The translations under genes and the position numbers were made by a program. This document shows positions 52,012 through 55,154 of a stretch of 64,000 nucleotides of DNA, piece after piece. The first letter of the stretch is position 1; the number at the start of each line of letters is the position of its first letter. The notes under the pieces are model-generated. The model saw only the letters and a list, made by a program, of their open reading frames with translations. It ran no database searches and was not told where the DNA came from. The DNA is from Halorussus gelatinilyticus (lineage in GTDB: Archaea; Halobacteriota; Halobacteria; Halobacteriales; Haladaptataceae), in contig NZ_CP096658.1 of the NCBI RefSeq assembly GCF_023238445.1, forward strand, positions 930,001 to 994,000, written 5' to 3'.

Positions 52012-52875
52012 ATGACGGAGGAGTACAGCCTGCTCGAACCCGAGAACGTCGAGGGCGTCGGGGACGAGTGGGAGGAGATAGACGTATCCGACACCGAGGC
52101 CGACAAAGTCCAGCGCCAGCGCGACCGGGAGTTCAACGAGTTCCGCGAGCGGTTGAAGAACACCGAGCAGTTCAAAGTCGAGCAGTCGGTGTTCGACGAC
52201 GCCACCCTGGCGGCCCTCTACAAACTGGTTCAGGACGGCTACGTGCAGGCGTTCGGCGGCCCCATCTCCTCGGGGAAGGAGGCGAACGTCTACACCGCGC
52301 TCGGGAGCGAGGAGCGCGGCGAGGTCGCGGTGAAGGTCTACCGCATCAACGCCTCGGACTTCCGGGACATGCGCGAGTACCTCGTCGGCGATCCCCGGTT
52401 CGAGGAGTTGGGTGGCAACAAGAAGCGGGTCGTCCTCGCGTGGACCCGCAAGGAGTTCGCCAACCTCAAGCGCGCCCGGAAGGCCGGCGTGCGCGTCCCC
52501 GAACCCATCGCGGTCCAGCGGAACGTCCTCGTCATGGAGTTTCTGGGGTCGGACGGCGACCGCGCCCCGACGCTCGACGACGCCCACCTCGAAAATCCCG
52601 AGACCACCTTCGAGGTGGTCCGCGAGTACATGCGGCGGCTCTACGACGCCGGACTGGTCCACGGCGACCTGAGCGAGTACAACATCGTCGTCCACGACGG
52701 CGAACTCGTCATCATCGACCTCGGACAGGCCGTGACGATTCACCACCCCAACAGCGACGACTTCCTAACGCGGGACTGCGCGAACGTCGCCTCCTTCTTC
52801 CAGCGACAGGGGATGGACGTCCACGGCGACGAGTTAGAAGAGTGGATTCGGGAGAACTCGGACCCCGACAAGTGA
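52012..52875 (+). CDS. rio1: RIO1-type serine kinase
   Basis: The protein has 287 aa. It has the RIO1 kinase fold: nucleotide loop GGPISSGKEANVY (about 82-94), lysine in VAVKVYR (about 107-113), catalytic loop VHGDLSEYNIVV (about 214-225) and metal site IIDLGQAV (about 232-239). STGKEANVYxA is the family signature and here is SSGKEANVYTA. RIO1 acts in late maturation of the small ribosomal subunit. The N-terminal 60 residues are acidic, and the C-terminal helix is DELEEWIRE. Confidence 0.94.
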   Translation: MTEEYSLLEPENVEGVGDEWEEIDVSDTEADKVQRQRDREFNEFRERLKNTEQFKVEQSVFDDATLAALYKLVQDGYVQAFGGPISSGKEANVYTALGSEERGEVAVKVYRINASDFRDMREYLVGDPRFEELGGNKKRVVLAWTRKEFANLKRARKAGVRVPEPIAVQRNVLVMEFLGSDGDRAPTLDDAHLENPETTFEVVREYMRRLYDAGLVHGDLSEYNIVVHDGELVIIDLGQAVTIHHPNSDDFLTRDCANVASFFQRQGMDVHGDELEEWIRENSDPDK

Positions 52876-52885
52876 CGGCGAAACG

Positions 52886-52893
52886 CTAATACG
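52886..52893 (+). promoter_or_regulatory. TATA-like element for the trpS leader transcript
   Basis: CTAATACG lies about 25 bp upstream of GTG 52914 and ATG 52917 of the short upstream ORF. There is no equally AT-rich element immediately before the trpS ATG (53073), so the transcript probably starts here and carries about 155 nt of leader. Confidence 0.45.
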
Positions 52894-52916
52894 GCGGGCC
52901 TCGCTACGTGGACGTG

Positions 52917-52976
52917 ATGGAGTCCGCTCTCTCGACTTGGCGCTGGCAGTCGCCCGGAGAGCGGACAGTGTCGTGA
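52917..52976 (+). CDS. 19-codon upstream ORF with two Trp codons in the trpS leader
   Basis: ATG 52917 to TGA 52974-52976; an in-frame GTG at 52914 directly precedes it. It encodes a 19-residue peptide beginning MESALS and containing Thr-Trp-Arg-Trp-Gln (TGG at 52938 and 52944). The Trp codons lie in the loop of the hairpin 52922-52966, whose formation would be affected by a stalled ribosome. The distance from the TATA-like element fits leaderless translation. It could act as a leader peptide for attenuation or translational control of trpS. Chance occurrence is not excluded. Confidence 0.45.
   Translation: MESALSTWRWQSPGERTVS
52922..52966 (+). promoter_or_regulatory. Hairpin and alternative pairing in the trpS leader
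   Basis: GTCCGCTCTC (52922-52931) pairs perfectly with GAGAGCGGAC (52957-52966), with a 25-nt loop. A competing 7-bp pairing is CGCCCGG (52951-52957) with CCGGGCG (52997-53003). The two cannot form together as nested stems. This is the arrangement seen in leader attenuators, and the Trp codons of the small ORF lie in the first loop. Confidence 0.45.
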
Positions 52977-53072
52977 CCGACGGCGCGCGGCCTTCACCGG
53001 GCGTCCGACGTGGCGGCGCTCACTCGCTTTCTCGCGCACCGACTTCCGAGCGCCAGCCACCGATTCAGACAC

Positions 53073-54251
53073 ATGCCAACAGATTCGACAGACCAGCAGT
53101 CAGAGTTCACCGTCACCCCCGACACCGTCGAGGGCGACATCGACTATCAGGACCTCTTGGACCGCTTCGGCGCGGACGAACTGACCGACGAGCAGGTCGC
53201 CAGATTTCCCGACCCGCACCCGATGGTCCGCCGGAAGGTGTTCTACGCTGGCCGGGACGTAGACCGGTTCTTGAGCGCGGCCGAGTCGGGCGAGACCGTC
53301 TCGCTCGTGACCGGCGTGGGTCCCTCGGGACCGATGCACATCGGCCACGCGATGCACTTCTACCACGCCAAGCACCTCCAAGAGCGGACGGGCGCGCACG
53401 TCTACGTCCCGCTCTCGGACGACGAGAAGTACTTCGGGAAGGACCTCTCGCTGGCCGAAATCGGCGAGTACGCCCGCGAGAACCTGCGGGACCTGCTCGC
53501 GGTCGGCTTCGACCCCGAGCGCACTCGCGTCGTCATCGACACCGCGGACGCGGACGTCGTCTACCCGCTCGCGGTGCAGTTCGGGAAACACGTCACCCAG
53601 TCCACGATGGAAGCGACCTACGGGGACCCCGGCAACGTCGGGCGTTCGTTCTATCCCGCGGTTCAAATCGCTCATCTGCTTCTGCCCCAACTGGTCCACG
53701 GGCGACACGCCAGCCTCGTCCCCATCGCGGCCGACCAAGACCCGCACGTCCGACTCGCGCGCGACGTCGCCGGGAAAGAGCGGTTCGACGTGGCCAAGCC
53801 CGCGGCCCTGCTGAGCAAGTTCCTGCCGACGCTCGACGGGCCGGGCAAGATGAGCAGTTCGGACGATGCGCCCGCCGTCCTGCTCACCGACGACCGCGAG
53901 ACGGTCGAGCGGAAGGTCCAGACACACGCCTACTCGGGCGGGAAGTCGAGCCTCGACGCTCACCGCGAACACGGCGGCGACCCCGAGGTGGACGTCGCCT
54001 ACCAACTGCTCGCGTTCTTCTTCGAGGACGACGACGCGACGCTCGACCGACTCGCTCGGGAGTACCGGGCGGGCGACCTTCTCAGCGGCGACCTCAAGGG
54101 CTACGCCGCCGAGAGAATCGCCGACTTCCTCGACGCCCACCGGGAGCGCCGCGAGCGAATCACCGACCTCGACGCCGAGTTGGCGAAGTACCGACTGACC
54201 GACGACGAACGCGAGCGCGCTCTCCCGGAGGGTGTCGGACAGTTCGGGTGA
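53073..54251 (+). CDS. trpS: Tryptophan--tRNA ligase
   Basis: The protein has 392 aa from ATG 53073; the open frame begins at 53010, but its earlier part lacks coding character. It charges tRNA-Trp. The HIGH-type motif is GPMHIGHAMHFYHA (about 88-101), and the KMSKS-type motif is PGKMSSSDDA (about 268-277). FADPHPMV-like N-terminal sequence (RFPDPHPMVRRKVF) and SDDEKYFGKDLS are archaeal TrpRS features. A long leader with a Trp-codon ORF precedes it. The gene sits between rio1 and the KH gene. Confidence 0.95.
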   Translation: MPTDSTDQQSEFTVTPDTVEGDIDYQDLLDRFGADELTDEQVARFPDPHPMVRRKVFYAGRDVDRFLSAAESGETVSLVTGVGPSGPMHIGHAMHFYHAKHLQERTGAHVYVPLSDDEKYFGKDLSLAEIGEYARENLRDLLAVGFDPERTRVVIDTADADVVYPLAVQFGKHVTQSTMEATYGDPGNVGRSFYPAVQIAHLLLPQLVHGRHASLVPIAADQDPHVRLARDVAGKERFDVAKPAALLSKFLPTLDGPGKMSSSDDAPAVLLTDDRETVERKVQTHAYSGGKSSLDAHREHGGDPEVDVAYQLLAFFFEDDDATLDRLAREYRAGDLLSGDLKGYAAERIADFLDAHRERRERITDLDAELAKYRLTDDERERALPEGVGQFG

Positions 54252-54605
54252 CGGTCCACCGGCGCGAAATCGGTCGCCGACCGATTTCGCGCCAACTGAC
54301 CAGCCGACCGATTTCGCGCCGACCGACCGGACCACCCCCTCGGCGGATAAAGGGCGAGGTCGGTGGACGAAGCACGACGAAGCGAGCACCGCAGGGAGGG
54401 AGCGAAGCGATCGACCGAGGAGCGCGGCGAGGCGCGCGAGTCCACCGACCGAGGGCTTTCGAGAACGTCGTGTTTTCGTCGCTGTTCGTGACGCGACCGG
54501 GAAACGTCTCGATTCCGACTGAGCTTGCATCTCTCCCGTCCGAGGTCACACAATCGTTCACGCGCGGACGAAGAGTTAAAAGACCCGGAGCGAGTACGTA
54601 ATCGC
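54252..54605. other. Repeat-bearing region between trpS and the KH gene (354 bp)
   Basis: It holds the 16-bp hairpin and its repeated arm at 54261-54320. The rest (54321-54605) shows no coding bias. A TATA-like AGTTAAAAGA (about 54571-54580) about 28 bp before ATG 54606 is the probable KH gene promoter. Confidence 0.5.
54261..54320. repeat. 16-bp hairpin plus third copy of its arm, after trpS
   Basis: GGCGCGAAATCGGTCG (54261-54276) and CGACCGATTTCGCGCC (54278-54293) form a near-perfect stem with one unpaired base, starting 9 nt after the trpS stop. The right arm is repeated exactly at 54305-54320, so two alternative stems are possible with the left arm. Confidence 0.75.
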
Positions 54606-55154
54606 ATGCAACACGTGAAGATTCCGCAGGACCGAATCGGTGTTCTCATCGGCGAAGGAGGTGAGACGATGCGCGAAATCGAAAGTCGCGCAGAGGTGCG
54701 ACTCGACATCGACTCCGAGAACGGGAAGGTCGAAGTCGAGAAGACCGGCGACCCCATCCGCGGCCTGAAGGGACCGGAAATCGTGAAGGCCATCGGCCGC
54801 GGCTTCGCGCCCGACGAAGCCCTCACGCTACTGGACGACGACATGATGATGTTCGACGTCATCGACATCGACGCCGCCGCCCGGAACAAGAACGACCTCG
54901 AACGCCAGAAGGGGCGACTCATCGGCGAGAACGGTCGGACTCGGGAACTCATGGAGGAGTTGACCGGCGCGAGCGTCGTCATCTACGGCACCACCATGGG
55001 CGTCATCGGCAGTCCCAAGCAGGTCGATGTCGTTCGGAGCGCCGCCGAGATGATTCTGGACGGCGCGCCCCACGGGTCGGTGTACTCGTTCCTCGAACGC
55101 AAGCGCAACGAGATGAAGCGCGAGGGGATGGAGTTCCACCAGTTCCCCGGCTAA
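54606..55154 (+). CDS. KH-domain RNA-binding protein (Dim2/Pno1-like)
   Basis: The protein has 182 aa from ATG 54606. The first KH domain (about 1-75) begins QHVKIPQDRIGVLIGEGGETMREIE, with the GxxG loop. The second (about 95-170) has KGRLIGENGRTRELMEELTGASVVIYG. The family is the archaeal relative of Pno1/Dim2, which binds the 3' end of small-subunit rRNA during maturation. This fits its neighbourhood with rio1 and aIF1A. The C-terminus is KRNEMKREGMEFHQFPG. Confidence 0.92.
   Translation: MQHVKIPQDRIGVLIGEGGETMREIESRAEVRLDIDSENGKVEVEKTGDPIRGLKGPEIVKAIGRGFAPDEALTLLDDDMMMFDVIDIDAAARNKNDLERQKGRLIGENGRTRELMEELTGASVVIYGTTMGVIGSPKQVDVVRSAAEMILDGAPHGSVYSFLERKRNEMKREGMEFHQFPG

Follow-up and report, generated by a model that had tools for sequence, protein, structure and literature searches.

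A conserved Trp-codon leader resembling bacterial attenuators precedes the auxiliary tryptophan–tRNA ligase gene of haloarchaea

Organization of the trpS2 locus

The window (the whole 64,000-nucleotide stretch of Halorussus gelatinilyticus DNA analyzed here) contains trpS2, an archaeal/eukaryotic-type tryptophan–tRNA ligase gene (53073–54251; NF008927, above cut-off) whose best PDB match is the yeast-type TrpRS 2ip1. A second TrpRS gene, trpS1, is located at C1:1323821–1325503 of the same genome, making trpS2 the auxiliary TrpRS. The gene is flanked (window 52012–55154) by a RIO1-type kinase gene and a KH-domain gene (54525–55154). trpS2 and the leader features described below are all on the forward strand.

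The region upstream of trpS2 is composed of a short ORF, two hairpins (P1 and P2) and a pyrimidine-rich tract. The ORF (52917–52976; MESALSTWRWQSPGERTVS) runs for 19 codons from ATG to TGA and is predicted to be leaderless. Its Trp-Arg-Trp codons, TGG CGC TGG (52938–52946, with the Trp codons at 52938–52940 and 52944–52946), are positioned in the loop of P1. The 5′ arm of P1 is referred to as region 1 (52922–52932) and the 3′ arm, which is common to an alternative pairing, as region 2 (52956–52966). Within these arms, 52922–52931 and 52957–52966 form 10 bp of perfect complementarity. P2 (AGTGTCG...CGGCGCT; 52967–53020) begins directly after region 2 and is followed by region 5 (about 53024–53032), a tract whose pyrimidine- and T-rich sequence is complementary to that of region 2. 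R1, a covariance model built from region 2, P2 and region 5, matches 52955–53037 with a score of 71 bits, the sole match in the genome. The 19-codon ORF with two Trp codons, their location in the loop of a perfect 10-bp hairpin and a TATA-like element further upstream had been described in a first-pass annotation of this DNA, and all three are borne out.

The predicted promoter (52879–52891) consists of a BRE-like CGAAA (52879–52883) and a TATA-like TAATA (52887–52891), which begin at −38 and −30 relative to the leader ATG. These are the consensus positions in 136 distinct related leaders, where C and AAA at −38 to −34 and a T/A-rich segment at −30 to −26 are locked to the leader start. The elements resemble the haloarchaeal promoter consensus, given as 'CGAAA' and 'TTWT', and 72% of the protein-coding transcripts of the haloarchaeon Haloferax volcanii are leaderless (PMC4983044). 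A transcription start immediately before the trpS2 ATG at 53073 had been named as grounds for abandoning the leader; the promoter instead indicates initiation at the leader ATG.

Conservation of the leader reading frame

We compared 152 oriented trpS2 upstream regions from many haloarchaeal genera, 71 of whose leaders share less than 90% identity and make up alignment A1. One further region (L180, G320) was left out, being a stretch without the leader motif in which the trpS2 match begins at residue 18. A short ORF with one to four in-frame Trp codons in a hairpin loop is present in 148 of the 152 regions. The Trp codons fall at about codons 5–20 and mostly encode WRW, with WQWRW, WRWW, WPWRW and WQWRWRW among the variants and a single Trp in eight leaders; one TGG codon is invariant in all 71 aligned sequences. 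Scans for cognate-codon clusters upstream of hisS and trpD, considered as further leader candidates, returned 2/30 and 1/30. Both were rejected as background and serve as controls. In one leader (L152, G239), TGA replaces a Trp codon (MTTALEWQ*, then CGC TGG), possibly representing a damaged sensor.

The frame of the Trp codons was examined by selecting the start codon solely by its position ahead of the first hairpin, blind to Trp. Among 164 leaders, 363 of the 376 TGG triplets in the loop are in the leader frame (363:1:12 over the three frames). The distance from the start to the first Trp codon takes ten different values, every one a multiple of three. Beyond the Trp codons the frame is lost: the Halorussus peptides end in GERTVS*, while most others read RADS, GADS or EVDS through the same conserved nucleotides. 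Retention of the frame up to the Trp cluster but not after it indicates selection on codons up to the cluster and on RNA thereafter. The frame bias, like the promoter spacing, favors a leader that is cotranscribed with trpS2 and translated. Taken together, the comparison leaves virtually no doubt that the leader is a real, functional element, and argues strongly that it senses through its Trp codons.

trpS2 is present in 149 of 392 haloarchaeal genomes and trpS1 in 380. Among 18 Halorussus genomes, trpS2 is missing from three (G003, G007 and G009) and disrupted in a fourth; the disrupted Halorussus gene at L017 (G001:C9) carries stops and a frame change, and its leader is intact. The four trpS2 regions that do not contain a leader (L014, L015, L016 and L116) belong to G005, G017, G015 and G357, and in none of these genomes was a trpS1 gene found. 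Three of the four are Halorussus, giving about two independent cases. Just one other genome, G150, has trpS2 and the leader but no detected trpS1, in an assembly that is only 72% complete. The leader is thus absent exactly where trpS2 is the sole TrpRS, and its presence accompanies the auxiliary status of the gene.

RNA structure of the leader

Both hairpins are maintained by compensatory change. In the 71 aligned leaders, P1 is paired in 82% of cells, compared with 35–48% for slid controls, and 47 cells carry double changes. P2 is paired in 89.8% of cells (slid controls, 31–61%) with 57 double-change cells, and none of 500 shuffles scored as high. An alignment of relatives had been proposed as the check on this element, and it reveals conserved Trp codons and a conserved first hairpin with compensatory changes across haloarchaeal genera. 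On its own, the H. gelatinilyticus leader does not stand out (its fold z-score, in GC-rich DNA, is −1.2); it is the comparison that lends it significance.

The earlier annotation had also proposed two competing structures, with a 7-bp pairing of 52951–52957 and 52997–53003 as the alternative to P1. Competition is supported, but with a different partner. The 7-bp pairing is present in this genome and is not conserved (51% of cells in the 71 leaders, against 86% for the first hairpin and 95% for region 2:5), and we reject it as a general switch. The competitor of P1 is instead the pairing of region 2 (52956–52964) with region 5, which encloses P2. Region 2:5 is paired in 94.7% of cells (slid controls, 56–69%), its covariation score is 0.388 compared with 0.321 for shuffles (0/500 as high), and RNAalifold proposed it unprompted. 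The region 5 motif mostly begins 69–75 nt past the last Trp codon. Region 5 and the trpS2 start are separated by a variable stretch of about 17 to 228 nt, and the position of the leader stop relative to P2 varies as well.

Predicted folds contain P1 in 65 of the 71 leaders when unconstrained and region 2:5 in 70 of 71 when region 1 is masked. Shuffled tracts also pair under masking (627/710, 88%), and the mean z of the 2:5 energy is −1.0, hardly better than for shuffled tract sequences. Energy-only tests of 2:5 were therefore rejected as non-discriminating, since region 2 is G-rich and will pair with any tract rich in pyrimidines; support for this pairing comes from its conserved register and modest covariation. 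Region 2 cannot pair with regions 1 and 5 together, so the leader is predicted to adopt two exclusive states: one with P1, P2 and a free tract, and one in which 2:5 forms a longer hairpin around P2.

The leader contains no bacterial-type terminator (a GC hairpin followed by a U-run); a conserved hairpin and then a pyrimidine-rich, weakly U-rich tract occur instead. Region 5 is about 37% T against a background of 17%, and its T runs are mostly 2–3 long, whereas known archaeal terminators have stronger tracts of U4–U7. A search of Rfam with 52600–53300 returned no match up to E = 1, T-box model included.

Leaders upstream of other genes

Strong matches to R1 occur in about 150 of the 392 haloarchaeal genomes searched; matches with E values of 0.001–0.1 were not used because chance alone would yield about 39 of them in this set. 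In several other genera, R1 and a Trp-codon leader are located before trpS1 (MASTSPDVRRWHPREVDS..., VSTSTDRWRWRWQAPEVDS...), and in G042 an R1 element with the leader MLSAFRSWSWRWYRSGKRTVS precedes trpD. Two genomes of genus g2 (apparently Haladaptatus) contain R1 before a second, auxiliary serS, and there the ORF (MESTSRSRSQSSFWEVDS...) has Ser codons in place of Trp. Of all the observations, this exchange of codons to match the downstream synthetase argues most strongly for codon sensing.

R1 elements also precede genes of other kinds. Five are positioned before GNAT acetyltransferase genes (L225, L260, L251, L254 and L243) with no obvious codon cluster, and some of these acetyltransferases are weakly similar to bleomycin acetyltransferases; perhaps these leaders sense ribosome-targeting inhibitors. 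Two more are found before an MsbA-like ABC exporter gene (L226; leader MMSATGLGPVLWHGSTVADSALA) and a class I methyltransferase gene (L227; leader MVSVSYLMRWLTFWEADSASNAVFRASLG), where again no obvious codon cluster was seen in the leaders. A stretch of a Haladaptatus halobius plasmid (H19, NZ_CP085339.1:226308–226434) is 83% identical in DNA sequence to the Haloferax mediterranei leader region with no annotated gene under the match, and is perhaps an orphan element.

Leaders of different construction were observed at two other kinds of synthetase gene. In 23 of 30 haloarchaea (L267–L296), a short ORF containing clustered Phe codons lies upstream of pheS. Many of these ORFs end in GFGFFF; that of H. 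gelatinilyticus itself (L284, G000:C1 about 1305376) is MPAESRLGGSARQPRHQRAGFGFFFAA. The layout is unlike that of the Trp leader, with hairpin arms (CCGAAYCCC/GGGRTTCGG) ahead of the Phe codons, and this is probably a second amino-acid-specific leader. In ten genus g2 regions (L034–L043), a different auxiliary TrpRS (37–39% identical) comes with a short ORF of its own, M....TAGGRFWPTTA*, whose one Trp codon lies in the loop of the hairpin GTGGTCG-ATTTTGG-CCGACCAC; the ten copies are nearly invariant.

A model for control of trpS2 by the leader

The first-pass annotation had suggested that ribosome stalling on the Trp codons tunes trpS, and the comparison supports such a scheme. A ribosome-sensing attenuator of the auxiliary TrpRS is the best explanation of the data and, in our judgment, quite a probable one. 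Transcription would begin at the leader ATG, with direct loading of a ribosome on the leaderless RNA. With ample Trp-tRNA, the ribosome would pass the Trp codons, allowing region 1 to pair with region 2; P2 would form, the tract would be left free and the transcript would end early, most likely through the termination factor FttA/aCPSF1. Under a shortage of charged tRNA-Trp, the ribosome would stall on the Trp codons, and because these lie in the loop of P1 it would cover region 1. Region 2 would then pair with region 5, lengthening P2 and hiding the tract, and transcription would continue into trpS2. The direction of the switch is deduced from the logic of its mutually exclusive, covarying pairings. 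FttA/aCPSF1 binds U-rich RNA after its exit from the polymerase, with an optimum at −30 to −36, and may terminate uncoupled transcription (PMC11616081, PMC8716108), so a lock by region 2 on the emerged tract could act in time.

Termination is the likely output of the switch, held with somewhat less assurance than the attenuator as a whole. The weak T content of region 5 also allows for a translational or stability output, in which the same sensing by P1 and 2:5 would govern the complete trpS2 mRNA through re-initiation, through coupling or by exposing a cleavage site. The structural and codon evidence fits this arrangement equally well and a weak U-tract favors it, but the 17–228 nt spacing makes direct hiding of the trpS start unlikely, and the leader stop is no more fixed relative to P2. 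Sequestration of the ribosome-binding site is rejected because of this variable spacing, and we regard an output at the level of translation or stability as rather unlikely overall.

The prevalence of WRW and the constancy of the frame as far as the Trp codons would also be expected of a TnaC-like arrest peptide that responds, within the ribosome tunnel, to free tryptophan or some other ligand and not to tRNA charging. What follows the Trp codons is difficult to reconcile with such a peptide: the residues differ in frame and sequence between genera, and several leaders end just past Trp (GRWRWH*, CWRWRWQ*, ARWRWR*). The number and spacing of Trp residues also vary (WRW, WQWRW, WRWW, WQWRWRW, RRWHP), and the serS version has Ser codons instead, making an arrest peptide improbable. 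Near the promoter, the P1 arms (GTCCGCTCTC/GAGAGCGGAC) make up a perfect inverted repeat, as would the operator site of a DNA-binding regulatory protein with an incidental ORF beside it. Yet the arms change with compensation among leaders (GCTCTC/GAGAGC, GCTCCC/GGGAGC, ACTTCC/GGAAGT, TACC/GGTA), the Trp codons stay in frame and region 5 continues to pair with region 2; we give an operator hardly any credence.

Relation to known systems

The two-state Trp leader looks like a bacterial amino-acid attenuator and is conserved across the haloarchaeal order. As in the bacterial trp attenuators (E. coli trpL and the Streptomyces trpS2 candidate), a short ORF with cognate codons is located upstream of a Trp gene and the pairings are exclusive, with one arm that a stalled ribosome would cover; in Streptomyces the gene downstream of the candidate is likewise an auxiliary trpS. 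That candidate, which precedes trpS2 in Streptomyces avermitilis (PMC1262725), is the nearest analogue. No sequence relation to the bacterial attenuators was found in the Rfam search. The archaeal leader differs from them in its predicted leaderless mRNA, transcribed from a BRE/TATA promoter, and in having no canonical hairpin and U-run, with the switch predicted to hide a pyrimidine-rich tract by lengthening the second hairpin. By analogy, it would work like the bacterial trp attenuators but without an intrinsic terminator of the bacterial type or a leadered leader mRNA.

T-box riboswitches reuse one RNA chassis with different amino-acid specificity before synthetase genes. The archaeal chassis is similarly reused before synthetase genes, for Trp and Ser, but would sense through the codons of a translated ORF and not by binding tRNA. 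Leader peptides of the TnaC and ermCL type likewise regulate by stalling a ribosome on a short ORF ahead of the gene, a stall that is predicted in the archaeal case. Unlike these, the archaeal leader has no conserved arrest peptide C-terminal of Trp and its codons match the downstream synthetase; the GNAT- and ABC-linked R1 members may be nearer to TnaC and ermCL.

Leaders of this kind may already be present in published data. A dRNA-seq study of H. volcanii (PMC4983044, Table 2) includes, among uORFs in 5′-UTRs of 150–250 nt, one of 23 aa (2743 Da) before the TrpRS gene HVO_A0127 and one of 26 aa before pheS (HVO_2948). The uORFs are listed there as small proteins, and the word attenuation is absent from the paper. 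The trpS2 leaders of H. mediterranei and Haloferax larsenii, which belong to the R1/Trp family, have 23 residues and masses of 2703 and 2728 Da, and the HVO_A0127 uORF, of equal length, is probably a leader of the same family. In the open-licence papers searched, ribosome-mediated attenuators are described from bacteria, and we found none from archaea.

We think it probable that these elements constitute a haloarchaeal family of ribosome-sensing leader attenuators, a counterpart of leader peptides and T-boxes, with one chassis that is swappable between Trp and Ser, a second for pheS and Phe, and GNAT, ABC and methyltransferase members that may sense inhibitors. Since the leader is predicted to be leaderless and its terminator is unlike the bacterial type, archaea would have arrived independently at a solution to the problem that bacterial attenuators solve. 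If the model is correct, archaea too would read the speed of translation to control gene expression, and the coupling of transcription to translation and FttA-dependent termination would become testable at a natural site. The leader would also provide a regulated part, responsive to tRNA charging, for haloarchaeal genetics.
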